A stretch of 36,422 nt of DNA from Verrucomicrobiota bacterium. Its GTDB lineage: Bacteria > Verrucomicrobiota > Verrucomicrobiia > Verrucomicrobiales > DEV007. The translations under genes and the position numbers were made by a program. Below, piece after piece: positions 22,456 through 36,422 of this stretch. The stretch lies in contig JAJRVS010000199.1 in NCBI GenBank assembly GCA_024277195.1, positions 1 through 36,422 on the forward strand. Direction: 5' to 3'. How positions within the stretch are numbered: position 1 is the stretch's first letter; every line of letters begins with the position of its first letter. Under the pieces are notes generated by a model. That model did no database searches. It was given only the letters and a program-made list of their open reading frames with translations, and was not told where the DNA came from.

Positions 22456-25400
22456 TCAAAGCACGGGTTTGATATACAAAATATGTGAATAGCTGAAGAT
22501 GAGCTCGGTAGCGCCCTGCGTTTCGCGTTCAGCCAGCGCTGTATCATAGTCGGTTCCAAAAAATTTCCAGCTACCGTTCTTCAACTGCACGGCCGCACGC
22601 CCTAGCGGTCCCGGGACAATGCGAGCCACGCTCGATAATCCGGGTGGCAGGATCACCTGCCCTGCTCCCCCGTTGCTCTTGGTCTTTACGTAGCCTTGCC
22701 CCCAAGTGACAACTTTTCCGTCTCGTGTCACCGCAAAAGACTGGAACGGCCCGCAGGCTATCTGAACCACATCTTTCAAGCCTACCGGCACATCACAGGC
22801 ACCGAAATCATTTTTTCCCCAGGCGACCACCGTTCCATTCGATTTAAGCGCCAGGTTGACAGCAGAACTAGCAGCAATTGCAGTGATGTCAGATAGACCT
22901 TTCGGTGGTCGATTATACCCGCTATTCATAGCCCCGTAATTCGTCACCGTTCCGTCCTGTTTCAGCAGCAACCAGTGGAATTGCCCAGAAGCGACCGCCT
23001 TGACTCCCTCAACCGCTCTGACTGGTTTTTGTCCCGGCCCCCAGGTGAGAGCAACACCATTTCGGGTGATTCCATGACAGGCCCCCAAACCAGAATCGAT
23101 GCTCACCAGATCCCTGGCTTTGGGCATAATGCGACTTCCTCCGTTTTTGTGTTCTCCCCAGCCCAGAACCGTACCGTCTTTACGCAGCGCCAGTACGTTC
23201 CGAAAAGCCCCTGATAAAGCCACCACCTCATTGCCTAATTCCTCCGGGATCTGATCTGCGCCATAGGCCTTACTCTCAACGATCTTCAACACATGGACCC
23301 GGCCGGGTTTGCCGGGCGGTGAAGCTTTGCCAAGTTTGAATTCCGTGGGGAGTGGCAATACGTGGATTTCGTGGTCACCTCCACCTTTTTTCAGGCTACC
23401 TCCGGCATGGATCATCACACCGCCCTTGAAACTCACTGCTGCGTTGCTGGTAACCGTCGCCACACCTATCTTCAGTTTTTGTACCAATCTCCCACTTTCG
23501 ACTTCCCAAATCCCCAACTGCCCGTCATTCGAACCCGCGAACAAATAGCGATCCAGATCAAAAAACCCCAAAGCTCTTACAAAAGAATTGATCCCTAGGA
23601 AAGGTTTGAGCCCAGTATAATTACGAATTAATTTTCCTGTTTCCAGATCGAATAATTGAGGAAACGATCCCTCTTTCGCCGCCAGAAGATAACTCCCGTC
23701 AGCGGTGGTCACCAATCGTGGAATTAATCCCATTATGCTTTTGATATCGAACAGGGCTTCGTTTTTTCCAACCTCAAATACGCGGAGCGGCAAGGGGCTA
23801 TTCTTCTTACCCGCACCATACGAAACTACAATCCGTTTGCTTCCCGGAATAAAAGCAATATCCGTTACCGCATTTTTGTAATGCGGTTCCAACTTCCAGA
23901 CTGGAGCCTTGGATTCAACCCCATAGAGAACAACACGCCCATTATACCCACCTAGTGCCACCTGTTTGCTATCCGGCGAAAACCGTGCGGTGCGAACCCC
24001 CGACTCACCAAAAGCAAATCGACTCACCACCTTGCCTGTTGTCGATTCGCGAATCTCCGCTCCTGTCCAATTAGTGATCAGGAGAGATTTCCCATCAGGC
24101 GAAAGCTCAAGACTGCTCGCCAAAACTTTATCTACTCGATTTGTTTCCTTTCCGGTCTCCACATCCCACCAACGCATGGTCAAATCCCCCGTCTTGCTAC
24201 CTCCGGAAATAGACACCGCCACTAGAGGAGATCCAGGTAGAAGAACCAAACCATTTACGTAGCCAGTGTGGCCAGACATTTTTTTGGAACCCAAGGACGG
24301 GGATCGGATGTTCACCAGCGAAGCTGGCGTTTTTTTCAGCAGCGATACCATTTTGCACTTCGGATGCGCTTTTTGAAAGGCTAATCGTGACTCCTTGGAA
24401 ATATCCGGACAATCATTTATCACAAGTTGCTTCAATCCTGTCATTCCCCGCAGCTTATCGAGCCCCTTGGAAGTAATCGCAGTGCCTGATATGTCGAGTT
24501 TTACCAAAGATTTGCTCCCTGATAGAAAAGTAATTCCCGCATCCGTGATTTTAGTTTTTTGCAAAGCAAGATCTTTCAACTGCGAAGCCCGCAGCAATTG
24601 CTCCATGCCTGCATCGGAAAAAAGAGTCTCATTTGCACCGAATATAGTGAGCTTTTTCAACGATTTAAATTTTGCTAAGCTCTCTCCGGTGACACGGGTC
24701 TTTTCGATGTAAATGGCAACACTTCGCAAGTGAGCCAGATGAGCCAGGCCCTTGTCGTCAATGGCTGTTCCGCTCAGGTTGTAAAAATTGATTTGGTCGA
24801 CATCTTTAAAAATGGCCAGCTCATCATTAGTGACAGGGCAATCCTTGAGAATAAAAGTCACGATGTTAAATTTTCCTTTCGGCAATTCAGCCTCCGAAGT
24901 GATTTTGCCAGCGCCCCTTTGCTTACCTGGATAATTAGCTGTAATCCATCCCCCCTTGGAAAAAACCCATTTGGCAACCTTCCTTAAGCTCGCATCTCTG
25001 GCGGCATTCACTGTCTCAATGGGCACCGCTTTATTGCCTCCGGACACCACCACCGGAGAAGATACCTTTCGGTTGCTACGCATGATCATGACAATCAAAA
25101 GAACAACAGCGACAAGAACCGCCCCTCCTATCCAAGCTGCACCAAACCCAGCGCTTTTGGTTTTTACCACCGTTTTTTTCTTTGCGGAAGAAGGCTTGGA
25201 AGTGACTTTAGGTGCGGCTGAAGCAACTGATTTTTTTATCGTTGGGCTCACCATTTTGCGCAAAGCTGCAGAGCCGGTCACCATTTTGGGGCCTTGTGGA
25301 GGTGAAGCAAATTCAGCCATTTCTGGTTCATCGCGGACTTGCAACAGGCTGGCGCTGAATTCACCTGCATCAGAAAAGCGTAACTCCTGATCCGGTTCCA

Positions 25401-26262
25401 TTGCCTTGACGACGATCTCATCAAACCCCCGGTGAAGCCCCTCAACCAGACTTGAGGGTGGCTTCCATGCACCTCGGGGAATTTTCCCAGTCAGCATTTC
25501 ATAGAGCATCACCCCAATGGCATAGATATCGACCCGGTGATCCACATTAGCACCGGTTTCAAGGATTTCCGGGGCGACGTAATCAGGAGTGCCCATGGCC
25601 ATGTTGGTCTTCGTCAAGCGGGTGTGCTCATCGGTGATGCCTCCACCGGTCAGTTTGGCCAGGCCGAAGTCGGCAATTTTCACATCTCCTTTCTCTGTGA
25701 TGAGGATATTGCCTGGCTTGATGTCGCGATGGATCACTCCCATGCTGTGTGCATAAAAAAGGGCATCACAAATTTGCTCAATCCATTTGAAAATATGATC
25801 AGTAGAGATCCCTCCTTTTTTAATAATTTGTGAAAGATCGCGGCCCTTCACATATTCCATCACAAAAAACAACTGCCCGTCGGTAGTTTGGCCAAAACTG
25901 TATACCGTGATAATATTTGCATGGCTCATTTGAGCCATGACGTGGACTTCACGCTGGAAGCGATCTGAAAACCTCAGAGCTTCGTCATTCTCGATTTTTT
26001 GTAGTATCTTGATCGCCACCGGGCGGTTGATGCTCTTTTGCACGGCCTTATATACCGTGCCCATCCCTCCCTGTCCGATAGTGCGGATGAACTCATATTC
26101 ATCGAGAACCACATTCAGGTTTGCAACGTCCGCAGGCACTGATTGATCCTGCTGCTCTGGTACATTACCAGGCACAGATCCGCTCTCTTCATCGATGAAG
26201 CTGATTTTTATTTTATTTTTAGATCTTGATGGATCCGGTGTTTGAGGGATGTCTTCTTCCAC
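22456..26262 (-). CDS. Transmembrane Ser/Thr protein kinase with LRR, WD40 and RCC1 repeats
   Basis: The product is 1268 aa from a GTG at 26262; no ATG lies upstream before an in-frame stop. Residues 56-310 are a complete Hanks-type kinase: glycine loop GQGGMG (63-68), Lys85, Glu105, HRD with Asp180, Asn185, DFG with Asp198, and an APE-type motif PE at 231-232. A Lys/Ser-rich linker leads to one membrane helix at about 372-394. The outer part has LRR-type repeats (about 465-640), a WD40 propeller (about 665-975, e.g. SGHTGYVNGL, FSPDSKQVALGG) and RCC1-type repeats (about 1010-1265, e.g. ALRKDGTVLGWGEHKNGG). The kinase should be cytoplasmic and the repeats periplasmic. It is probably a receptor-like signalling protein; ligand and substrate are unknown. 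It is monocistronic. Confidence 0.93.
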   Translation of the reverse strand: MEEDIPQTPDPSRSKNKIKISFIDEESGSVPGNVPEQQDQSVPADVANLNVVLDEYEFIRTIGQGGMGTVYKAVQKSINRPVAIKILQKIENDEALRFSDRFQREVHVMAQMSHANIITVYSFGQTTDGQLFFVMEYVKGRDLSQIIKKGGISTDHIFKWIEQICDALFYAHSMGVIHRDIKPGNILITEKGDVKIADFGLAKLTGGGITDEHTRLTKTNMAMGTPDYVAPEILETGANVDHRVDIYAIGVMLYEMLTGKIPRGAWKPPSSLVEGLHRGFDEIVVKAMEPDQELRFSDAGEFSASLLQVRDEPEMAEFASPPQGPKMVTGSAALRKMVSPTIKKSVASAAPKVTSKPSSAKKKTVVKTKSAGFGAAWIGGAVLVAVVLLIVMIMRSNRKVSSPVVVSGGNKAVPIETVNAARDASLRKVAKWVFSKGGWITANYPGKQRGAGKITSEAELPKGKFNIVTFILKDCPVTNDELAIFKDVDQINFYNLSGTAIDDKGLAHLAHLRSVAIYIEKTRVTGESLAKFKSLKKLTIFGANETLFSDAGMEQLLRASQLKDLALQKTKITDAGITFLSGSKSLVKLDISGTAITSKGLDKLRGMTGLKQLVINDCPDISKESRLAFQKAHPKCKMVSLLKKTPASLVNIRSPSLGSKKMSGHTGYVNGLVLLPGSPLVAVSISGGSKTGDLTMRWWDVETGKETNRVDKVLASSLELSPDGKSLLITNWTGAEIRESTTGKVVSRFAFGESGVRTARFSPDSKQVALGGYNGRVVLYGVESKAPVWKLEPHYKNAVTDIAFIPGSKRIVVSYGAGKKNSPLPLRVFEVGKNEALFDIKSIMGLIPRLVTTADGSYLLAAKEGSFPQLFDLETGKLIRNYTGLKPFLGINSFVRALGFFDLDRYLFAGSNDGQLGIWEVESGRLVQKLKIGVATVTSNAAVSFKGGVMIHAGGSLKKGGGDHEIHVLPLPTEFKLGKASPPGKPGRVHVLKIVESKAYGADQIPEELGNEVVALSGAFRNVLALRKDGTVLGWGEHKNGGSRIMPKARDLVSIDSGLGACHGITRNGVALTWGPGQKPVRAVEGVKAVASGQFHWLLLKQDGTVTNYGAMNSGYNRPPKGLSDITAIAASSAVNLALKSNGTVVAWGKNDFGACDVPVGLKDVVQIACGPFQSFAVTRDGKVVTWGQGYVKTKSNGGAGQVILPPGLSSVARIVPGPLGRAAVQLKNGSWKFFGTDYDTALAERETQGATELIFSYSHILYIKPVL

Positions 26263-26638: not shown

Positions 26639-28048
26639 TCACTTCACCAACAACGGATCTCCCTGCCTTTTTCGCCACTCCTCCAAACGCTTCTGCAGCG
26701 ATTCAAATCGCTGCTGATACTGCGGCATTCCTGCCAGATTATTCATCTCCCAAGGATCTGTATTCAGATCAAACAACTGCCAGTATTCTTTCACTGGATA
26801 ATAAATCAGCTTCCAATTATCATCACTGCGGATCATGCGTTGGGCATTGGTGTAATAACCAAAAATATCTTCATGGTGTTTTTCCACCTTGCCTCTCAAC
26901 ACACCGACAAAACTCTTCGCGGTCACCTCCTCCGGAATCTTGATCCCCGCCAAGTCACAAGTCGTTGGATAAAGCTCGCGCAAGTAAGTTTGCGCACGGC
27001 TTCTGGATCCCCCTTCGATCCCTGGTCCAGCAATAATCATCGGCACATTGATGGTATGCTCATACATATTCTGCTTTCCTCGCAGCCCATGACTGCCCAC
27101 CGCCATGCCGTGATCACTCGAATAAATCACAATCGTATTCTCCAAATCCCCACTCTCCTCCAGCGCTTTCAAAATACGCCCGACCTGGGCATCCAAATCA
27201 TCCACCACGGAATAATACACCCGCAATAAATCTTTCACCGCATGCTCGGTCCGCGGCCACGCCAGCAGGGCTTCATCCCGACCATCAAAGTTACCGTGAT
27301 CAAAGGGGTGCTCCGGCAGAAAGTTTTCCGGTAGCTTCATATACTCCGTTTTGTATTTCCCCTCCATCCCTGGCGGCATGAACAGCGGATCATGCGGCGC
27401 AGTAAAGTTCACCTGCATCAGCCAGGGTTTCTCACCCTTTTCTTTGATCAAGCCTATCGCCGCGTCGGCAAATTTAGCGCTGATATCCGGCGTCAAGCCA
27501 ACTCCCAGCTCCGGATACTTGCTTTTCCCATCTTCACTTTGAAAAATCCAACCGCGATAACCGGTCACTGGAAAACCCTTCCAGTCCTGCTGCTCTTTCA
27601 TCCACTTGCCACCACCACCACGATAGTACCCAGCCACTTTGGAATAGCCTGCCTTAGTTGGCGTAGTGTTCACATGCCACTTGCCCACATACCAAGTATC
27701 GTAACCCGCCTGTTTAAAAGTTCCCGCCCAGAACTTAGTGTCTGGATCAAAATCAATCCCCCGACGACTCTGTTGATGCTCCCAGCCATGCCTACCGCTC
27801 ATGATCTCCGAACGGCTCATCCAGCAAATCGGATACGAACAAGTCGCCCGTGAAAAGCTCATCCCGCGTGCCGCCAAGGCATCCAGATTGGGCGTATGAA
27901 TTCGATCATTACCAGCCAAAGAGCGAATCGTATCTGCACGTTGATCATCCGCTAACAAGAAAAGAACGTTCGGCTTCTTTTCAGCAGCCATCACCGAACC
28001 AGCAAACAAACACAATGCCGACAGCAACATGATTGTTAGATTGCGCAT
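26639..28048 (-). CDS. Exported sulfatase (alkaline phosphatase superfamily)
   Basis: The product is 469 aa from the ATG at 28048, which starts a signal peptide (MRNLTIMLLSALCLFAGSVMAA). The frame remains open to 28447, but that extension is translated palindromic repeat DNA and is rejected. Sulfatase landmarks: PNVLFLLADDQRADT with metal-binding Asp34 and Asp35; HTPNLDALAARG; the active-site segment PICWMSRSEIMSG with Cys75, which should become formylglycine; a KWH motif (VGKWHVNTT); and IVIYSSDHGMAVGSHGLRGKQNMYE with the second metal site. The C-terminus has the usual QLFDLNTDPWEMNNLAG. The family removes sulfate esters from glycans in the periplasm or outside. The Cys motif reads C-W-M-S-R, with Met in place of the common Pro/Ala. 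The substrate is unknown; sulfated algal or host glycans are plausible. Confidence 0.92.
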   Translation of the reverse strand: MRNLTIMLLSALCLFAGSVMAAEKKPNVLFLLADDQRADTIRSLAGNDRIHTPNLDALAARGMSFSRATCSYPICWMSRSEIMSGRHGWEHQQSRRGIDFDPDTKFWAGTFKQAGYDTWYVGKWHVNTTPTKAGYSKVAGYYRGGGGKWMKEQQDWKGFPVTGYRGWIFQSEDGKSKYPELGVGLTPDISAKFADAAIGLIKEKGEKPWLMQVNFTAPHDPLFMPPGMEGKYKTEYMKLPENFLPEHPFDHGNFDGRDEALLAWPRTEHAVKDLLRVYYSVVDDLDAQVGRILKALEESGDLENTIVIYSSDHGMAVGSHGLRGKQNMYEHTINVPMIIAGPGIEGGSRSRAQTYLRELYPTTCDLAGIKIPEEVTAKSFVGVLRGKVEKHHEDIFGYYTNAQRMIRSDDNWKLIYYPVKEYWQLFDLNTDPWEMNNLAGMPQYQQRFESLQKRLEEWRKRQGDPLLVK

Positions 28049-28096
28049 TGTAACCCCTTGCCACGATGTAAAAGGGGCGTGCATTGGTAACTGTGG

Positions 28097-28334
28097 CACG
28101 TAATGGCATTGCGTGGGGGCGTGGAACGTAATGGTATTACGTGGCTTGCAGACGGTTTCGTGCGAACACACGGATTGCCAATCCATGCCACGATTGGCAA
28201 GGGGTCTATGGTGAAGGAGTGGCGCGCAATGGCATTGCGTGGAGGAACCGACTCGAGGGAATACACGGATTGCCAATCCGTGCCACGTTGCGAAGGAAGC
28301 TTTGGGCAAGTAAGTGGGACGCAATGGCATTGCG
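28097..28334. repeat. Cluster of six short palindromes upstream of the sulfatase gene
   Basis: Two palindrome types recur. Type 1, core CGCAATGGCATTGCG, is at 28097-28115 (variant), 28127-28141 (variant CGTAATGGTATTACG), 28225-28239 (perfect) and 28320-28334 (perfect). Type 2, CACGGATTGCCAATCCGTG, is at 28169-28187 (one mismatch) and 28264-28282 (perfect, 19 nt). Spacers are unrelated except for short CCACG-like flanks. The cluster sits in the 400-bp gap before the sulfatase start, so it would lie in its promoter or leader. Confidence 0.85.
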
Positions 28335-28449
28335 TGGGGCGACGGGGTAGTTCGAGGAGAAATTGCTAATTCAGCTATTCGAACCTTAACAAAACCCCAA
28401 AACAAATTCACCCTCCGTGTTACAACTTTATAATACGATGTCCACATGT

Positions 28450-31400
28450 CTACTTCCCCGCCCCCTTCATCAGATAAGCAAACAAATCCCGCAGCTCATC
28501 ATCCTTCAAGCCCACCAACAAACCTTCTGGCATCAGCGAAATCGGCGACGCTTGCAACGAGGTGATCTGATCACGTGTCAAAGTAGTCAACTGCCCAGCC
28601 GGATCTCGCAAAGTCACCGTCTTAGGATTTTGATCAGCAATCATGCCAATCAACGTGCGACCATCTTTCATCGTCACGATGAAGTTGGTGTAACCCTCGC
28701 GAATCTCCAAACTCGGATCAATCATCGCCGGCAACCAGAACTCTAGGTTGCCTCGTTCATAACCTGTCAAATCAGGACCAATCACCCCACCCTTATCAAA
28801 CAGCTTATGACAAACCACACAACGCTGAGCAAACAAGGTATCCCCTTTTTTCGCATCACCAGCACCCTTCTCCAACAATGCCATGATACGTTTGATCTCC
28901 GCCTGTTTTGCCGCGGCAGGTTGTGCTCGCATGTCTGGCCAATGTTTGGCTACCAGCGCATTGATCTCTCCATCATTGTGCAACTTCAACTGCTGCACCA
29001 CATCTGGCTCGATGTCCCTCGCTTTGATCACCCATGCATCCACTTGAGCCAAAAACAACTTCGCCCAATCCTTACGACTCGCCAAAACCCTGTCCGCCGT
29101 GCTGCGCACATTGTGCTCCGCAGGCAAGCTGCGCCCATATCGAGTCAAGATCGTCTTAGCGATGGAGATGTCATCGTAGTTCGCCAACGACTGCATTGCC
29201 ACTCGCTTCAGCGCACTTTGCTGATCCTGAGCCAAGACCGCCAACAAAGGTGCAATCACACTTTTATCGCCTAAATTACCAAACAACTTCGCCAAGGTCA
29301 CCCGCTCTAGAGTATCGGACTTGCTGCTCTTCACCACCGCGATCGCCTTTTTCAAAGACGCCTTATCACCACGCTGAACCCCCAAGACCAGATCACTATC
29401 GCCTGCTTTTTTAGCGTATTCATCCATCGCCTTGGTCAATTCCTCTGGCAACTTAGGAATGGTCGCCCCTTGGAAAGCCTGTTGCAAACCTGTCATCAAA
29501 ATCTTCTGAGCTTCTTCGTCAGGTGCCAACTGCAATAGCTTGGCACACATCTCAAAATTCTCAGCTCCACCCGCCATCGCATAGCGCCGCATCAGACGTG
29601 CTGCCATTTCCTGTTTGAACAAAGGCAGATCCCAGATCTTGCCATCCTTGACCATATTCTCGATCTCGCCACTACCGTCTTCCGCATGAGCCTCCAGCGC
29701 CCACCAGTTCATCAGCGGCATGTGCAAGTCCTCCATATCTTCACTGCGCCCGAGCAAATTACGCACAATAGGAATCGCTATACTGGCAGGCAATCTTTTG
29801 GCAGATGCCGCCAACTGGGAACGCACATGCACACTGTCATCTTTAGCCGCCATTTCCGACAGCTTGTCGCCCAGATCCGTGCCCGCTTTACGCCGATCAC
29901 CCACCAGCCTTACCACCCAACGACGCACATCCGCATCCTGATTCTCCAACCACATGATTGCTAAACCTTCGGTCAATCCCCCCAACAGATTCAAAGCCCA
30001 CAAAGCCTCAAGTGATTTCTGCCCACTGTCAGCACTCACCAGTTTTTTCAATTGCGGCAATACCGACTTATCACCACGCCAGCCCAACTCCAAAACCGCC
30101 CGCCGCCGCATCCAGCGATTATCACCATCAAACAAAGCGATCAGATCCGCATTCGACGTTTTAGCGAGATCAAAAGTCTTATGCTTCATGTCCATGCCCT
30201 TTGGCTTGACGCGATAAATACGACCACTGTCTTTATGCCAGTTATCCACCGGGTAAACATGGCTCAAACGCGTGTCTGACCAGTCAGCAATGTAGATGCC
30301 ACCCTCCGGACCCACCGCACCAAACACAGGGCGGAACCAGCGATCTTTGGTCACCATCAAATAATCTTCGTCCTTAGTCTGATAAGTCGAAGTGTCCGCC
30401 ATCACCTCCGAGACATGCACCACGTTCTGCAAAGAATTCGGCGCAATGATTTTCCCCTTGTAAGAATCGGGAAAAAGCCCGCCCTCATAAATCATAAAAG
30501 CCTGAGGAAAACGACGAGTATCCCCTTCATGACGCATGTGTTTAAAATAACCAAAAGCATAGGGATTGGTCAGCGGCCCGTGTTTACCCCAACCCTTCTC
30601 GCCATAACTTCCCTGCGGATAATACATACCACGGGTATTGCCATGATTGGTGCCAGAAAAAACCCGCCCCTTGGCATCGATCTCAACACTGAAAGTATTG
30701 CCGCCACCCTCGCCATAAATTTCAAACTCATGGGTATCCGGATGATAACGCCAGATGTTCTGCCCCTTCCACTTCACCATCTTACCCGTCGCCGGATTTT
30801 TCACATTGCCGGTGCTGGTACTACCGTTGGCTCCGTACAGCCAACCATCAGGCCCCCACTTCATATTACTCATCACCGAGTGCGTGTCCTCAAGCCCGAA
30901 GCCCGACAAACGCACTTCTGGATCGCCATCGGGAATATCATCACGATCAGCATCAGGATAAAACAACAGATAGGGAGGGTTACTCACCCAGATTCCTCCA
31001 TGCCCGACCACCACCGAAGTGGCGATATTCAAACCCGTGATCACATCCTTGTGTTGGTCGTAATACCCGTCCCCATTAGTATCTTCAAACACCGTGATGG
31101 TATCCTTGCCCTTCACCCCATGCGGAGGAGGCTCCGGCACCTTGTCAAAAACAGCCCGCAGATAGTTGTCGTATTCCACCACCTTCAAACCCGCAGGGAA
31201 CTGATACTGCAAATACTGCATCACCCACATCCGACCACGGTGATCCCAAGAGACAAACAAAGGCTGACCAATCACCGGCTCACTCGCCATCACCTCCACT
31301 TCCACATCCTTGCGCGTGCGAAACTCCTTCGCCGCTTCCTGAGCGGAGACCAAAGGGATATCCAAAGAAAGCATGGTCCCCCTGCCCTTGAAATTTTTGA

Positions 31401-31554
31401 TAACATCCACCACCCCTTTGTTACCCGCCATGGAGGTGTCTTTTTTCTTCCCCTCCTCCGCAGGCACCGATTTTTTATCATCAGCAGCCAACAAAGCGTG
31501 CGGAAGTAATAACAAACTAAGAATGGCTACAACTAGAGCATTTTTTGTGATCAT
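28450..31554 (-). CDS. Membrane-bound-dehydrogenase-like (TIGR02604) / HEAT / c-type cytochrome (TIGR02603) protein
   Basis: The product is 1034 aa with a signal peptide (MITKNALVVAILSLLLL..HALLAA). Residues about 75-470 match the beta-propeller N-terminal domain of Pirellula/Verrucomicrobium putative dehydrogenases (GQPLFVSWDHRGRMWVMQY, EDTNGDGYYDQ, MKWGPDGWLYGANGS, GGIYIADWSDTRLSH). Residues about 480-830 are HEAT-like helical repeats (ADVRRWVVRLVGDRRKAG, ALKRVAMQSLANYDD). The C-terminal domain (about 895-1034) is the PVC-type haem-binding domain with CVVCH at 912-916 and a likely Met ligand at 1008 in SLMPEG. The propeller probably oxidises a sugar or alcohol and passes electrons to the haem, but no substrate is known. 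It lies between the TpsB gene and the sulfatase on the same strand. Confidence 0.92.
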   Translation of the reverse strand: MITKNALVVAILSLLLLPHALLAADDKKSVPAEEGKKKDTSMAGNKGVVDVIKNFKGRGTMLSLDIPLVSAQEAAKEFRTRKDVEVEVMASEPVIGQPLFVSWDHRGRMWVMQYLQYQFPAGLKVVEYDNYLRAVFDKVPEPPPHGVKGKDTITVFEDTNGDGYYDQHKDVITGLNIATSVVVGHGGIWVSNPPYLLFYPDADRDDIPDGDPEVRLSGFGLEDTHSVMSNMKWGPDGWLYGANGSTSTGNVKNPATGKMVKWKGQNIWRYHPDTHEFEIYGEGGGNTFSVEIDAKGRVFSGTNHGNTRGMYYPQGSYGEKGWGKHGPLTNPYAFGYFKHMRHEGDTRRFPQAFMIYEGGLFPDSYKGKIIAPNSLQNVVHVSEVMADTSTYQTKDEDYLMVTKDRWFRPVFGAVGPEGGIYIADWSDTRLSHVYPVDNWHKDSGRIYRVKPKGMDMKHKTFDLAKTSNADLIALFDGDNRWMRRRAVLELGWRGDKSVLPQLKKLVSADSGQKSLEALWALNLLGGLTEGLAIMWLENQDADVRRWVVRLVGDRRKAGTDLGDKLSEMAAKDDSVHVRSQLAASAKRLPASIAIPIVRNLLGRSEDMEDLHMPLMNWWALEAHAEDGSGEIENMVKDGKIWDLPLFKQEMAARLMRRYAMAGGAENFEMCAKLLQLAPDEEAQKILMTGLQQAFQGATIPKLPEELTKAMDEYAKKAGDSDLVLGVQRGDKASLKKAIAVVKSSKSDTLERVTLAKLFGNLGDKSVIAPLLAVLAQDQQSALKRVAMQSLANYDDISIAKTILTRYGRSLPAEHNVRSTADRVLASRKDWAKLFLAQVDAWVIKARDIEPDVVQQLKLHNDGEINALVAKHWPDMRAQPAAAKQAEIKRIMALLEKGAGDAKKGDTLFAQRCVVCHKLFDKGGVIGPDLTGYERGNLEFWLPAMIDPSLEIREGYTNFIVTMKDGRTLIGMIADQNPKTVTLRDPAGQLTTLTRDQITSLQASPISLMPEGLLVGLKDDELRDLFAYLMKGAGK

Positions 31555-32069: not shown

Positions 32070-33518
32070 TTAGCTGGGCAAAAGATTCGTGCTGCTCGCC
32101 TGCCCCTCCAACATGAGATGCAACTGGAAGTCCTTTGGCAAAGGGATCATCTGGGTGAGACTGCCATTCCAGTAAACATACGACGAGCCTGCCCCGAGCC
32201 GTAGTTCATTGAACACGTCGTCAGAATTTTTCCCAGAAAATCCACCTGGAGACATCACCAGCCGATTGTAAAATTGAGTCAGCCCCAAACGACTACGCTT
32301 GCGCCCCATCTGCGCCAGAGTGAATTGATAAATTTCCGTATTAGTATCACTGACTCTCAATCCACCAAATTCAAGATTATTATTCGTCGTCTTGAAATCA
32401 AAACCCACATGCAAGTCCTGCTCGATGCCCCACCAAATAGGCAGAGGCTGCACATAAACTCCCGACAACTGCGCGCTCTCTCCACCACTGTTAAAAGTCT
32501 GACCCGCCGCCTGAATCGATACATCCGTATTCACATATCCACCCAGAAACCTAAGCTCGCCACGAGTCGCGGCAATCGGTGCGCGGTAGTAAATCGAATG
32601 CCCCTGCAATCCTTCAAAATCCACCGACGTCGTGTATTGGTAACTGACAATGTGACCCAAACCAAAAACATTGCCCCACTCAAATCCAAAATTCAGTCGA
32701 TCCACTCCGATAAACTCGTTACCCGTATTATCATAACCCACATAAGCCGTCAGTGGTCGCTGCTCGTCCACCTCCAGAATCATGTCCGCATCACCGAACT
32801 CCGTGCCAGGAGTGTAGAGCAGATTGAGACTACGAAACGGATTGCGACTAAGGAAACGCAAATCCTGAAGCAAAGTGGATTGGTAAATCAAATCACCCGG
32901 GCTGAGTCGGATATACTGGAGGTAATCCTCCGGATCAAAATATTCTGCACCGGTCACCCGCACTTCACCAACCCGCCCCACTACGATTACTAACTGCAAT
33001 ACTCCACCACTGACATCCTGTTCCGGAAACCCCACATCGACCACCGGCAAATCCGCCTCGCGGTAAGCGAGCACCACATCACGAGTGATGTTTTCAATCG
33101 CCGCCACACTGAGCGGCCCATTCAGATAGTTCTGCAAAGCTTGCAACACTTCATCCGGAACCACCAGATCATCACTACCAACCTTCACATCACTGACCTT
33201 CGGTGGCGAATCCGCCTGCACTTCATCCATCGCCCCCCACAGCACGATACCCGATATTTTTCCGACCGCTTCATCACTGGAATTTTCCCCGCTTGCAGGC
33301 AGTTCCGGCATCATCACCGTCGCAGCACCATCAGGTCGTTTGACCACCTGTGGCACAATACGCATGATGTCCTGCCCCTGGACCATCGGGCACGACAAGA
33401 CAAAAAGGATCAGCAAACCAAAAATCAGGGAACCACTGATGGGCACAGACGAACACTGATTTTTTTTAAAGATGGCGCGCTTCCGCTTGAGATATGAATC
33501 TTTGAAATAGTTAGGCAT
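32070..33518 (-). CDS. Two-partner secretion outer-membrane transporter TpsB (ShlB/FhaC family), stopped early
   Basis: The frame encodes 482 aa to a TAA at 32070-32072; reading past it gives the last 142 residues at 31641-32069 in the same frame. The full gene would have 624 sense codons, close to the usual TpsB length. The N-terminus has a basic region and a hydrophobic signal (SLIFGLLILFVLSCPMVQGQ). POTRA-type segments follow: LNGPLSVAAIENITRDVVLAYREADLP (first 19: LNGPLSVAAIENITRDVVL) and VVGRVGEVRVTGAEYFDPED, then LNLLYTPGTEFGDADMILEV. The barrel begins near AYVGYDNTGNEFIG. The partner TpsA lies 65 bp upstream, giving the operon tpsA-tpsB. The stop falls ten codons before VRGF, so the barrel would lack its last strands and probably not function unless the stop is bypassed. 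Bases near 33434-33460 come from a repeat that overlaps the signal-peptide coding region. Confidence 0.88.
   Translation of the reverse strand: MPNYFKDSYLKRKRAIFKKNQCSSVPISGSLIFGLLILFVLSCPMVQGQDIMRIVPQVVKRPDGAATVMMPELPASGENSSDEAVGKISGIVLWGAMDEVQADSPPKVSDVKVGSDDLVVPDEVLQALQNYLNGPLSVAAIENITRDVVLAYREADLPVVDVGFPEQDVSGGVLQLVIVVGRVGEVRVTGAEYFDPEDYLQYIRLSPGDLIYQSTLLQDLRFLSRNPFRSLNLLYTPGTEFGDADMILEVDEQRPLTAYVGYDNTGNEFIGVDRLNFGFEWGNVFGLGHIVSYQYTTSVDFEGLQGHSIYYRAPIAATRGELRFLGGYVNTDVSIQAAGQTFNSGGESAQLSGVYVQPLPIWWGIEQDLHVGFDFKTTNNNLEFGGLRVSDTNTEIYQFTLAQMGRKRSRLGLTQFYNRLVMSPGGFSGKNSDDVFNELRLGAGSSYVYWNGSLTQMIPLPKDFQLHLMLEGQASSTNLLPS
33434..33460 (-). repeat. Decameric repeat inside the TpsB signal-peptide region
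   Basis: CACTGAT at 33434, CACAGAC at 33444 and CACTGAT at 33454 are spaced exactly 10 bp (plus-strand reading). On the coding strand this is ATCAGTG..TCTGTG..ATCAGTG. It encodes part of the stretch NQCSSVPISG between the basic N-terminus and the hydrophobic core. A related array in the opposite orientation lies at 33549-33574. Confidence 0.7.
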
Positions 33519-33583: not shown

Positions 33584-36422
33584 TTATTCCTCCTCTTCTT
33601 CAACATCCACTTCAAAGCTTCCCAGAGTGTGCATCGAATGATTGGGCAGAAAATCCACAAACCCACCAATACGATACTCTGGCCATTGCCACCAAGAGTC
33701 CCTTTCGAATGTCGCAGGCCGGATGAAATGGATGTCCTGACGGAACAAGGAAGCGGGCAGCTCAATTCCTGGTGTCCCTGGCGTGGGCATGAGCACATCA
33801 CCTGGCAAGTTGTTTCCACCAGCTGCGGCAGCAACGGCAGCAACGGCAGGAGTGACACCCAGTGTATAAAAAGCAAAATTGCCCGGGTCAACCAGGTTAT
33901 ATGGCCCCAATCCAAAGTTATACAACCCTTGCGCATTAGGCGTGATGCCCGGTCCGGGAGCGGCAGTTCCATTTAATGAAGCCCCGACGTCAATCTGATT
34001 ACTCGCCGCCGAGGGAATATAGAAACGCAGTTGTCCCGTTCCCATGGGAGCACTGGAAAAGACGCTACTGGCATCAGCGGTGAGTTGCTCTAGGCCACCA
34101 ACGCTGCCCACGCTTATAAATGTATTGCCCGATGTGTAGGTGTCCCCACCGCCGGGTGCACTTCCAATAAATGCACCGACCAGACTCACATTGCCGCCCG
34201 TTTGTATCATCACGTCGCCCTCTACATCACCACTAGCCCCACCATGGCCGATTCCGGCCCACCCACTACCCACAGTAGTTAGTGTAAGATTTCCCGCATT
34301 CACCACGCTTATATCTCCACTCTTATCTCCTTCGGCTCCAATCCCTCCATTGCCCAGCTGCGCGTAGGCGTTGAGGCCTCCTCCTCCCTCGAAGTCGATC
34401 GCTGCTGCAGATGTTATCGTCGTTGCTCCGCTTTGACCTCCTCTGGCTCTCAGCCCTCCATTGCCCAGCTGCGCGTAGGCTTGGGTGCCTCCTCCTCCCT
34501 CGAAGTCGATCGCTGCTGCAGATGTTATCGTCGTTGCTCCGCTTTGACCTCCTTCGGCAAACGCCCCTCCATTGCCCAGCTGCGCGTAGGCTCTTCCTCC
34601 CTCGAAATCGATCGCTGCGGCAGATGTTATCGTCGTTGCTCCGCTTTGGCCTCCAACGGCTTCATACCCTCCATTGCCCAGCTGCGCGTAGGCGAAGTCT
34701 TCGCCTCCTCCCTCGAAGGTGATCGCTGCTGCAGATGTTATCGTCGTTGCTCCGCTTTGACCTCCAGCGGCTCTATACCCTCCATTGCCCAGCTGCGCGT
34801 AGGCGATGCCGTCTTCTCCCGCGAAGTTGATCGCTGCTGCAGATGTTATCGTCGTTGCTCCGCTTTGGCCTCCAGATGCGTTTAACCCTCCATTGCCCAG
34901 CTGCACGTAGGCTAAGTCGCTTCCTCCCGAGAAGTCGATCGCTGCTGCAGATGTTATCGTCGTTGCTCCGCTTTGGCCTCCAGCGGCTATATACCCTCCA
35001 TTGCCCAGCTGCGCGTAGGCTTGGAAGCCTCCTCCCGTGAAGGTGATGTCTCTCCCAACAGACAGTTCAATATCTGCGTCAGCTACCGCGTCAGCTGTGG
35101 TGTTGAAGGTGCCTCTATCCGCTCCCACATGCCCTATCTGCACATAGCTGAAATTAACTCCACTCCCGCCTGTCGCACGCACGTCATTCAAGGCATGCAC
35201 CACTATACCTCCATTCACCGTTACATTCGCTCCTCCCACATTTGCCAGATCCAAATCCGTCCCGTCCAACGCAATCCCGTTCGTCACCTGAAACCCCAAT
35301 TGCGCGAAGTTTCCAACCCCACTATTGCCGCCTTGCAAGACCACATCATAGCCGAACACATTGGTATTGCCCGATCGACTTCCCACCGCGATTCCTGCAG
35401 TCTGCGTGCCGTCTCCGATGTTCACACTACCGCCATTGCCATACACCGTCGTCGAGCTCACATCCGCATCTACGAAAACCGTCGTATCATACGCCGTAGT
35501 CCCATCCCAACCCGCCACGATGTTGATATCGCCTCCAGTGTCGTTGAGGTTCTGCACACTGGCGTTGAAGTTCACATCCCCCACCGCCAGGAAAGTCAGA
35601 TCATAGGTCGAGTCATAGTAAATATTCGAATTCACCGTGATGTCGCCATTCAGCATGTCGCTGCCCGACGGTCCGTAGTCCGGATCGCTCAGCGTCGTAT
35701 CAATGGTCACATTATTCGACCCCAAAGCGTTCTCGATATTCACCGCCTCGGTCATTCCGATGATGTAATTATACGGATCGAGCAACAAATTCCCACCCCC
35801 GGTATCCACCGTGCCGTAAAAGCCCAAATACTCCAGACCAGACACTTCAGTAAAACCTCCCGCGCCTCCGCCCGCTCCTCTATTCTCAATCGCCCCCTGG
35901 AAATCCATTAGCCTATCCGCCCACAAAACCACTCTACCGCCGGCTCCCGCGCCCGTCGCATTAGCCAAAATCTGCGCGCCCTCTGCCACGCTGGTATTCT
36001 GCGCATTGGGCTTAGTCGCGTCGCGTCCCCGATCCCCACCACCAATATACACCTGCCCGCCGCCACGATACCCACCGGCATCAATCAACGCCGTGCCACC
36101 CAAACTCACATTGCCGCCAAAAGCCATCACCTGTCCGCCCACTCCCGCATCACTCGTCGCGCTGATCTCTCCTCCCAGCATCACCTCGCCATCACGCGCG
36201 CCGTTGATCAGCACCATGCCGCCATCACCACTGCCCCCATTAGCCGAAATCCGTGAACCCGGTGCCAGCACGATCTGCGAGCTCTGCATCTGACCCGAAC
36301 CGTCCTCGGGATCCGCTCCCAATAATACAAACCCTCCGCCATTGCCACCGTTGGCGCTAATTTCTCCATTCGCCCCCAAGCCGATAAAAGATCCGGTCAC
36401 ATGAATGAACCCTCCGTCCCCA
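33584..36422 (-). CDS. Filamentous haemagglutinin-like TpsA exoprotein, 5' end beyond window
   Basis: The minus-strand frame is open from the window edge to a TAA at 33584-33586; 946 residues are visible. Early segments are typical of TpsA exoproteins: GGNLLLDPYNYIIG and NGDITVNSNIYYDSTYDLTF, and glycine-, asparagine- and alanine-rich strands such as GGDINIVAG that would form a right-handed beta-helix. Near 34345-35020 lies a run of about seven repeats (YAQLGNGG..A.GGQSGATTITSAAAI.FEGG). The end has a short low-complexity Ala-rich part, a PGTPG linker, and a tail SFEVDVEEEEE. The TPS export domain and signal peptide must lie beyond the edge. TpsB next door should export it; the function is probably surface adhesion. 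The ORF has no clear terminal anchor. Confidence 0.88.
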   Translation of the reverse strand, partial: GDGGFIHVTGSFIGLGANGEISANGGNGGGFVLLGADPEDGSGQMQSSQIVLAPGSRISANGGSGDGGMVLINGARDGEVMLGGEISATSDAGVGGQVMAFGGNVSLGGTALIDAGGYRGGGQVYIGGGDRGRDATKPNAQNTSVAEGAQILANATGAGAGGRVVLWADRLMDFQGAIENRGAGGGAGGFTEVSGLEYLGFYGTVDTGGGNLLLDPYNYIIGMTEAVNIENALGSNNVTIDTTLSDPDYGPSGSDMLNGDITVNSNIYYDSTYDLTFLAVGDVNFNASVQNLNDTGGDINIVAGWDGTTAYDTTVFVDADVSSTTVYGNGGSVNIGDGTQTAGIAVGSRSGNTNVFGYDVVLQGGNSGVGNFAQLGFQVTNGIALDGTDLDLANVGGANVTVNGGIVVHALNDVRATGGSGVNFSYVQIGHVGADRGTFNTTADAVADADIELSVGRDITFTGGGFQAYAQLGNGGYIAAGGQSGATTITSAAAIDFSGGSDLAYVQLGNGGLNASGGQSGATTITSAAAINFAGEDGIAYAQLGNGGYRAAGGQSGATTITSAAAITFEGGGEDFAYAQLGNGGYEAVGGQSGATTITSAAAIDFEGGRAYAQLGNGGAFAEGGQSGATTITSAAAIDFEGGGGTQAYAQLGNGGLRARGGQSGATTITSAAAIDFEGGGGLNAYAQLGNGGIGAEGDKSGDISVVNAGNLTLTTVGSGWAGIGHGGASGDVEGDVMIQTGGNVSLVGAFIGSAPGGGDTYTSGNTFISVGSVGGLEQLTADASSVFSSAPMGTGQLRFYIPSAASNQIDVGASLNGTAAPGPGITPNAQGLYNFGLGPYNLVDPGNFAFYTLGVTPAVAAVAAAAGGNNLPGDVLMPTPGTPGIELPASLFRQDIHFIRPATFERDSWWQWPEYRIGGFVDFLPNHSMHTLGSFEVDVEEEEE
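34345..35020 (-). repeat. Tandem repeats of 102-111 bp inside the TpsA gene
   Basis: The plus-strand string GATGTTATCGTCGTTGCTCC recurs near 34410, 34521, 34623, 34734, 34842 and 34950, at intervals of 111, 102, 111, 108 and 108 bp, all multiples of three. Each encodes about 34-37 residues with a conserved GGQSGATTITSAAAI core and YAQLGNGG; the linker after FEGG varies in length and sequence. A final degenerate unit (YAQLGNGGIGAEG) ends the array near 34345. Near-identity at DNA level points to recent duplication or gene conversion. Confidence 0.9.

Follow-up and report, generated by a model that had tools for sequence, protein, structure and literature searches.

A probable lineage-specific REP cluster of the BIME/REPIN form ahead of a sulfatase gene in a Verrucomicrobiota genome

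Introduction

Several described systems resemble the palindrome cluster reported here. Among REPtrons of the group 3 type, which carry perfect-palindrome REPs, the Sm REP of S. maltophilia is 23 nt long and consists of a tetranucleotide foot (GTAG), an 8-bp stem and a 3-nt loop, in which a specific G is needed for cleavage (PMC8266576). The E. coli system combines alternating inverted REPs (BIMEs) with TnpA-REP, for which the structure of a RAYT-REP hairpin complex has been solved (PDB 4er8). Within the Verrucomicrobiota, REPs with a GTGG foot have been described in Opitutus terrae, where GTAG-20, of the GTAG super-family, forms inverted dimers that are mostly intergenic (PMC3733652). A limited search for literature on REP-associated tyrosine transposases in Verrucomicrobiota found nothing beyond that source.

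The window considered here is a stretch of 36,422 nt (contig JAJRVS010000199.1) from the draft genome of a Verrucomicrobiota bacterium (GenBank assembly GCA_024277195.1; 422 contigs, 5.49 Mb; G000 in our set), and was compared with the congener Verrucomicrobiota bacterium CSMAG_116 (G001). Six hairpins ahead of a sulfatase gene in this window very probably represent a lineage-specific REP cluster of the BIME/REPIN form, in which two stem families (A and B) share a GTGG foot and a GGY loop, and which belongs to the RAYT/REP (REPtron) class. Length, tetranucleotide foot, stem, 3-nt loop and uniformity of the loop are as in the S. maltophilia Sm REPs, but the foot is GTGG instead of GTAG and two stem families have one loop, the likeness to group 3 being one of REP anatomy (PMC8266576). 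The GTGG foot, inverted pairing and mostly intergenic location are those of O. terrae GTAG-20, a comparison that concerns these features, though only tens of copies occur in the window genome (PMC3733652). Since GTGG-footed REPs were described there, elements of this kind are already known. In comparison with E. coli REPs, the A and B stems have no bulge and GTGG replaces GTAG.

Results and discussion

Anatomy of the array

The array (28093..28336) is located between two minus-strand genes. Downstream of it lies the sulfatase gene (26639..28030; Pfam PF00884, 156 bits), and on the other side it is bordered by the 3' end of a gene for a DUF7133/HEAT/cytochrome c protein (28450..31554). Read along the window, the six units are A, A, B, A, B and finally A. 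Units A1 (28093..28115, loop GGC), A2 (28121..28143, perfect 7-bp stem, loop GGT), A3 (28219..28241, loop GGC) and A4 (28314..28336, perfect 7-bp stem, loop GGC) are read on the plus strand, and units B1 (28169..28191, loop GGC) and B2 (28264..28286, perfect 8-bp stem, loop GGC) on the minus strand, which makes adjacent A and B units inverted with respect to each other, as in BIMEs and REPINs. When folded as single-stranded DNA, all six 23-nt units show a GTGG foot and a hairpin with a stem of 7-8 bp and a 3-nt loop. Four of them are perfect palindromes whose arms reach 6 bp or more on either side of the 3-nt loop; in 1000 first-order Markov copies of a 400-bp region, the mean number of such palindromes was 0.12 and the maximum 3.

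A reading made previously from the sequence only had placed six perfect or near-perfect palindromes of two alternating types at 28097-28334, each with one central base. The palindromes are indeed present upstream of the sulfatase gene, though that extent misses the GTGG foot with which the array begins and, at its other end, the outer edge of unit A4. The two types do not alternate strictly, and what was described as a single central base is a loop of three nucleotides (GGC or GGT) in the folded strand. The same reading had attributed false open frames to the cluster, and this was borne out: the listed sulfatase ORF (26639-28447, 602 aa) runs through the array, a start near 28030 is indicated by codon usage, with an alternative in-frame ATG at about 28048, and the extension of the frame to 28447 is false. 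The case is a warning that REP arrays make false open frames longer where genes begin.

The distances between the hairpins hinted at a longer tandem repeat of 95 nt, but this was rejected: in an ungapped comparison only 48 of 95 positions are identical, which reflects spacing and not a clean duplication. A search of Rfam with a limit of E=1 returned four matches, all of them far from the gathering score, and these were taken as chance. Elsewhere in the window, the minus strand encodes a protein kinase of 1268 aa that combines WD40, RCC1 and leucine-rich repeats in a single chain (22456-26262) and a two-partner secretion transporter of the ShlB/FhaC type (32070-33518), which is adjoined by a long open frame (33584-36400) that may be its exported partner.

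Copies of the A and B units in the genome

The window genome contains 39 A and 32 B matches to the 23-mers at up to 3 mismatches, and reversed control patterns gave 0 matches in the same genome. A merged census of core sites with at most 2 mismatches comprises 89 sites (49 A and 40 B) in 47 stretches; unit A2, with three mismatches from the core, is left out of this count, which is bounded by the search patterns and refers to stretches chosen for holding sites. A GT[AG][AG] tetranucleotide is found exactly 2 nt ahead of the core at 76 of the 89 sites (66 GTGG and 5 GTAG). As judged by gene calls from codon usage, 84 of the 89 sites are intergenic, as are 62 of 64 in CSMAG_116, and the five genic sites in the window genome have no GT[AG][AG] at the foot position. 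Furthermore, inverted orientation is the rule for A/B neighbours up to 200 bp apart (25 of 27 pairs in the window genome; 22 of 23 pairs in CSMAG_116).

The sites thus have the features by which REPs are recognised, namely a short hairpin with a GT[AG]G tetranucleotide next to it or no more than 2 nt off, and multiple extragenic copies, and their pairing in inversion is that of BIMEs and REPINs. A genome-wide count had been proposed for telling REPs from operators; the intergenic placement speaks for REPs, though the copies number tens and not the hundreds that had been named for REPs. Of 57 genomes, five contain the B 23-mer, the window genome among them; outside the genus it is confined to two genomes, each with one weak match.

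Occupancy of homologous gaps in CSMAG_116

The order of the DUF7133 and sulfatase genes is kept in CSMAG_116, where the DUF7133 protein is 91% identical and the gap of about 120 bp between the two genes contains no REP unit. The array is thus not conserved upstream of the orthologous sulfatase gene. Two further positions, a pair on contig C142 and a unit at C64:2740, are likewise occupied in the window genome and empty at the homologous place in CSMAG_116, and the converse is seen for two pairs of CSMAG_116 (C113 and C128). None of the five homologous gaps compared, all within the fetched stretches, is occupied in both genomes.

Footed clusters of either genome are found most often between convergent genes (18 of 48 clusters in the window genome; 14 of 34 in CSMAG_116). 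Together with the folding of every unit as a hairpin, this setting is consistent with hairpins that selection maintains at the ends of genes to terminate transcription or stabilise mRNA. However, no T-run is found behind any of the six hairpins in the window, the foot is conserved and stands at a fixed spacing, and the CSMAG_116 gaps homologous to occupied ones have no units. A terminator or stabiliser is hence an improbable explanation of the array, and such a role could be a secondary effect of REPs.

A GC-rich motif resembling CCGGCTGTC..GCTTCGCT was also seen in two intergenic places, at C64:6174 of the window genome and in the C23 gap of CSMAG_116 (L230, about 1428-1455). A strict pattern for the CCGGCTGTC..GCTTCGCT motif gave one copy only in the fetched stretches.

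A RAYT adjoining units of both families

The RAYT transposase had been supposed absent, and a tyrosine-HUH transposase had been suggested as something to look for. PF01797 (Y1_Tnp) has 28 matches in the window genome and, when all 28 loci were scanned with their flanks, a single one, on contig C64, was found to adjoin A and B units directly. At one other locus (C90), two units lie at a distance of about 1.2 kb, and at another (L065) there is one weak site with 6 mismatches; the rest have none. The C64 RAYT is flanked by units on its one assembled side, and is a damaged or incompletely assembled copy, truncated where the contig ends and with an in-frame TAA. Genes of the C64 type are single-copy, with one match in the window genome and one in CSMAG_116. 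The RAYT is therefore not absent, and its position beside copies of both stems, together with the GTGG foot, the inverted pairs and the dozens of intergenic copies, supports the suggestion that the palindromes are REPs.

In CSMAG_116, the orthologue is intact (an open frame of 235 aa, 69% identical to the C64 protein over 132 aa) and has A and B stems, the same as those of the window genome, on both flanks. Between the C64 fragment and this orthologue dN is 0.185 (132 codons), synonymous divergence giving no usable value and hence no ratio. Both proteins have the NHVH and YIGxN (Tyr) motifs, that of the window genome being a fragment with a stop. The intact protein matches Pfam Y1_Tnp above the cut-off, and its match to NCBIfam REP_Tyr_transpos (NF047646; E=2.6e-18), the better of two matches, scores 66.3 bits against a cut-off of 80, a threshold that curators set for naming and that does not define the class. 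As a sequence search against solved structures gave no match for this protein, a fold comparison was made. The AlphaFold model (pLDDT 90.7, pTM 0.84) has as its best PDB match the E. coli RAYT-REP hairpin complex 4er8 (E=1.4e-5, TM 0.51 by query length, 13% identity). The protein thus combines a Y1/HUH fold, with HUH motif and catalytic Tyr, with a single-copy gene that is flanked by its own REPs, as is typical of RAYTs.

A split of the window-genome RAYT over two contigs was considered but found no support: the N-terminal 78 aa of the CSMAG_116 protein matched nothing in the window genome, in a search run without a positive control, where an empty result is not evidence of absence. Given the truncation at the contig end, the in-frame TAA and the N-terminal part not found elsewhere, it is doubtful that the C64 RAYT, as assembled, is currently active.

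Related RAYT loci were collected from named genomes, and 80 of 306 were kept. In 39 of the 80, at least two similar hairpins with GT[AG][AG] feet are located within 800 bp of the gene, and no such sets were found in shuffled flanks (three per locus). The same detector found no such hairpin set at the remaining 41 loci.

By its position in both genomes, the C64-type RAYT probably recognises the A and B units and would be responsible for their spread, with the GTGG foot and GGY loop as its likely present code. Such a Y1/HUH protein (RAYT, TnpA-REP) would read the REPs as single-stranded hairpins through foot, stem and loop and cut near the hairpin, and inverted REP pairs would then be copied or moved to new intergenic sites. 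That the units are instead passive repeats, which would owe their spread to recombination or to a different Y1 transposase (for instance the multicopy family described below), might be argued from the 28 Y1_Tnp matches and the damage to the C64 gene, but is quite unlikely, given that only the C64 gene among the 28 loci has A and B units right beside it and that the same stems are found on both flanks of its orthologue in CSMAG_116.

Proteins of about 350-410 aa with an N-terminal Y1/HUH domain (NHFH and YIDLNP motifs) are encoded in multiple copies on many contigs (e.g. L081 and L086). This family is not tied to A or B units, apart from the copy on C90 mentioned above.

Joint change of foot and loop between the two species

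In the window genome, the middle base of the loop, read on the foot strand, is G at 68 of the 76 footed sites. In CSMAG_116, the foot is GTAA or GTAG at 51 of 53 footed sites and the middle base of the loop is C at 48 of 53. Foot and loop therefore both differ between the species (GTGG with GGY against GTAA/GTAG with GCY), while the stems are the same, and this applies to A and B alike. The window genome also holds four GTAA sites with the loop GCC, which is the CSMAG_116 type. In S. maltophilia, a single G to C change in the loop abolishes cleavage, and feet altered at position 3 or 4 are not cut (PMC8266576).

A joint change in two stem families would be explained by a change in one recogniser. 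It is tentatively proposed that within this genus the RAYT-REP recognition code may have switched as a unit, with foot and loop changed and stems kept, as the single RAYT diverged, including a Gln/Arg difference beside a conserved Trp. In the E. coli RAYT, the stretch with this Trp contacts the foot. If such a switch did take place, the two species carry reciprocal, non-interchangeable REP populations, and the contrast between them is a natural experiment on how RAYTs read hairpins. Alternatively, a founder effect may be behind the joint change.

The residue after the Trp was compared with foot type at 38 of the 39 related loci with at least two hairpins, L308 being dropped because it was misaligned at the motif. 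An A-ending foot is associated with 5 of 16 proteins without Gln after the Trp and with none of the 22 proteins that have Gln there (Fisher p=0.009, uncorrected for kinship), which is no more than suggestive of a link between this residue and the type of foot.

Relation to the sulfatase gene

The other interpretation offered from the sequence, paired operators in which the two palindromes would bind one or two regulators of the sulfatase gene, agrees with the end of the array lying 45-63 nt ahead of the sulfatase start and with sulfatases making up 5 of the 26 genes that have a unit 5' in the window genome (the genome, of 5.49 Mb, has 98 Pfam sulfatase matches), but is to be rejected as highly improbable, mainly because the gap between the same gene pair in CSMAG_116 is REP-free, and also because the other 21 of the 26 genes are not sulfatases, none of the 26 5'-adjacent genes in CSMAG_116 is one, the convergent gaps that are the commonest setting have no promoter to control, and a duplex operator needs neither a strand-specific foot nor its fixed position 2 nt before the core.

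The array is best regarded as mobile-type repetitive DNA and not as sulfatase regulation, and as a REP cluster it would have no role specific to the sulfatase gene beyond the addition of hairpins to the leader DNA or RNA. The excess of sulfatases among the genes with a unit 5' is mild, comes from one genome, includes the window's own gene and was partly prompted by it; it may reflect insertion near accessory genes. In CSMAG_116, which has 131 PF00884 matches, 4 sulfatase genes are found among the 37 genes whose 3' end is next to a unit. The DUF7133 protein encoded on the other side of the array likewise belongs to a numerous family, with 61 matches in the window genome and 58 in CSMAG_116.
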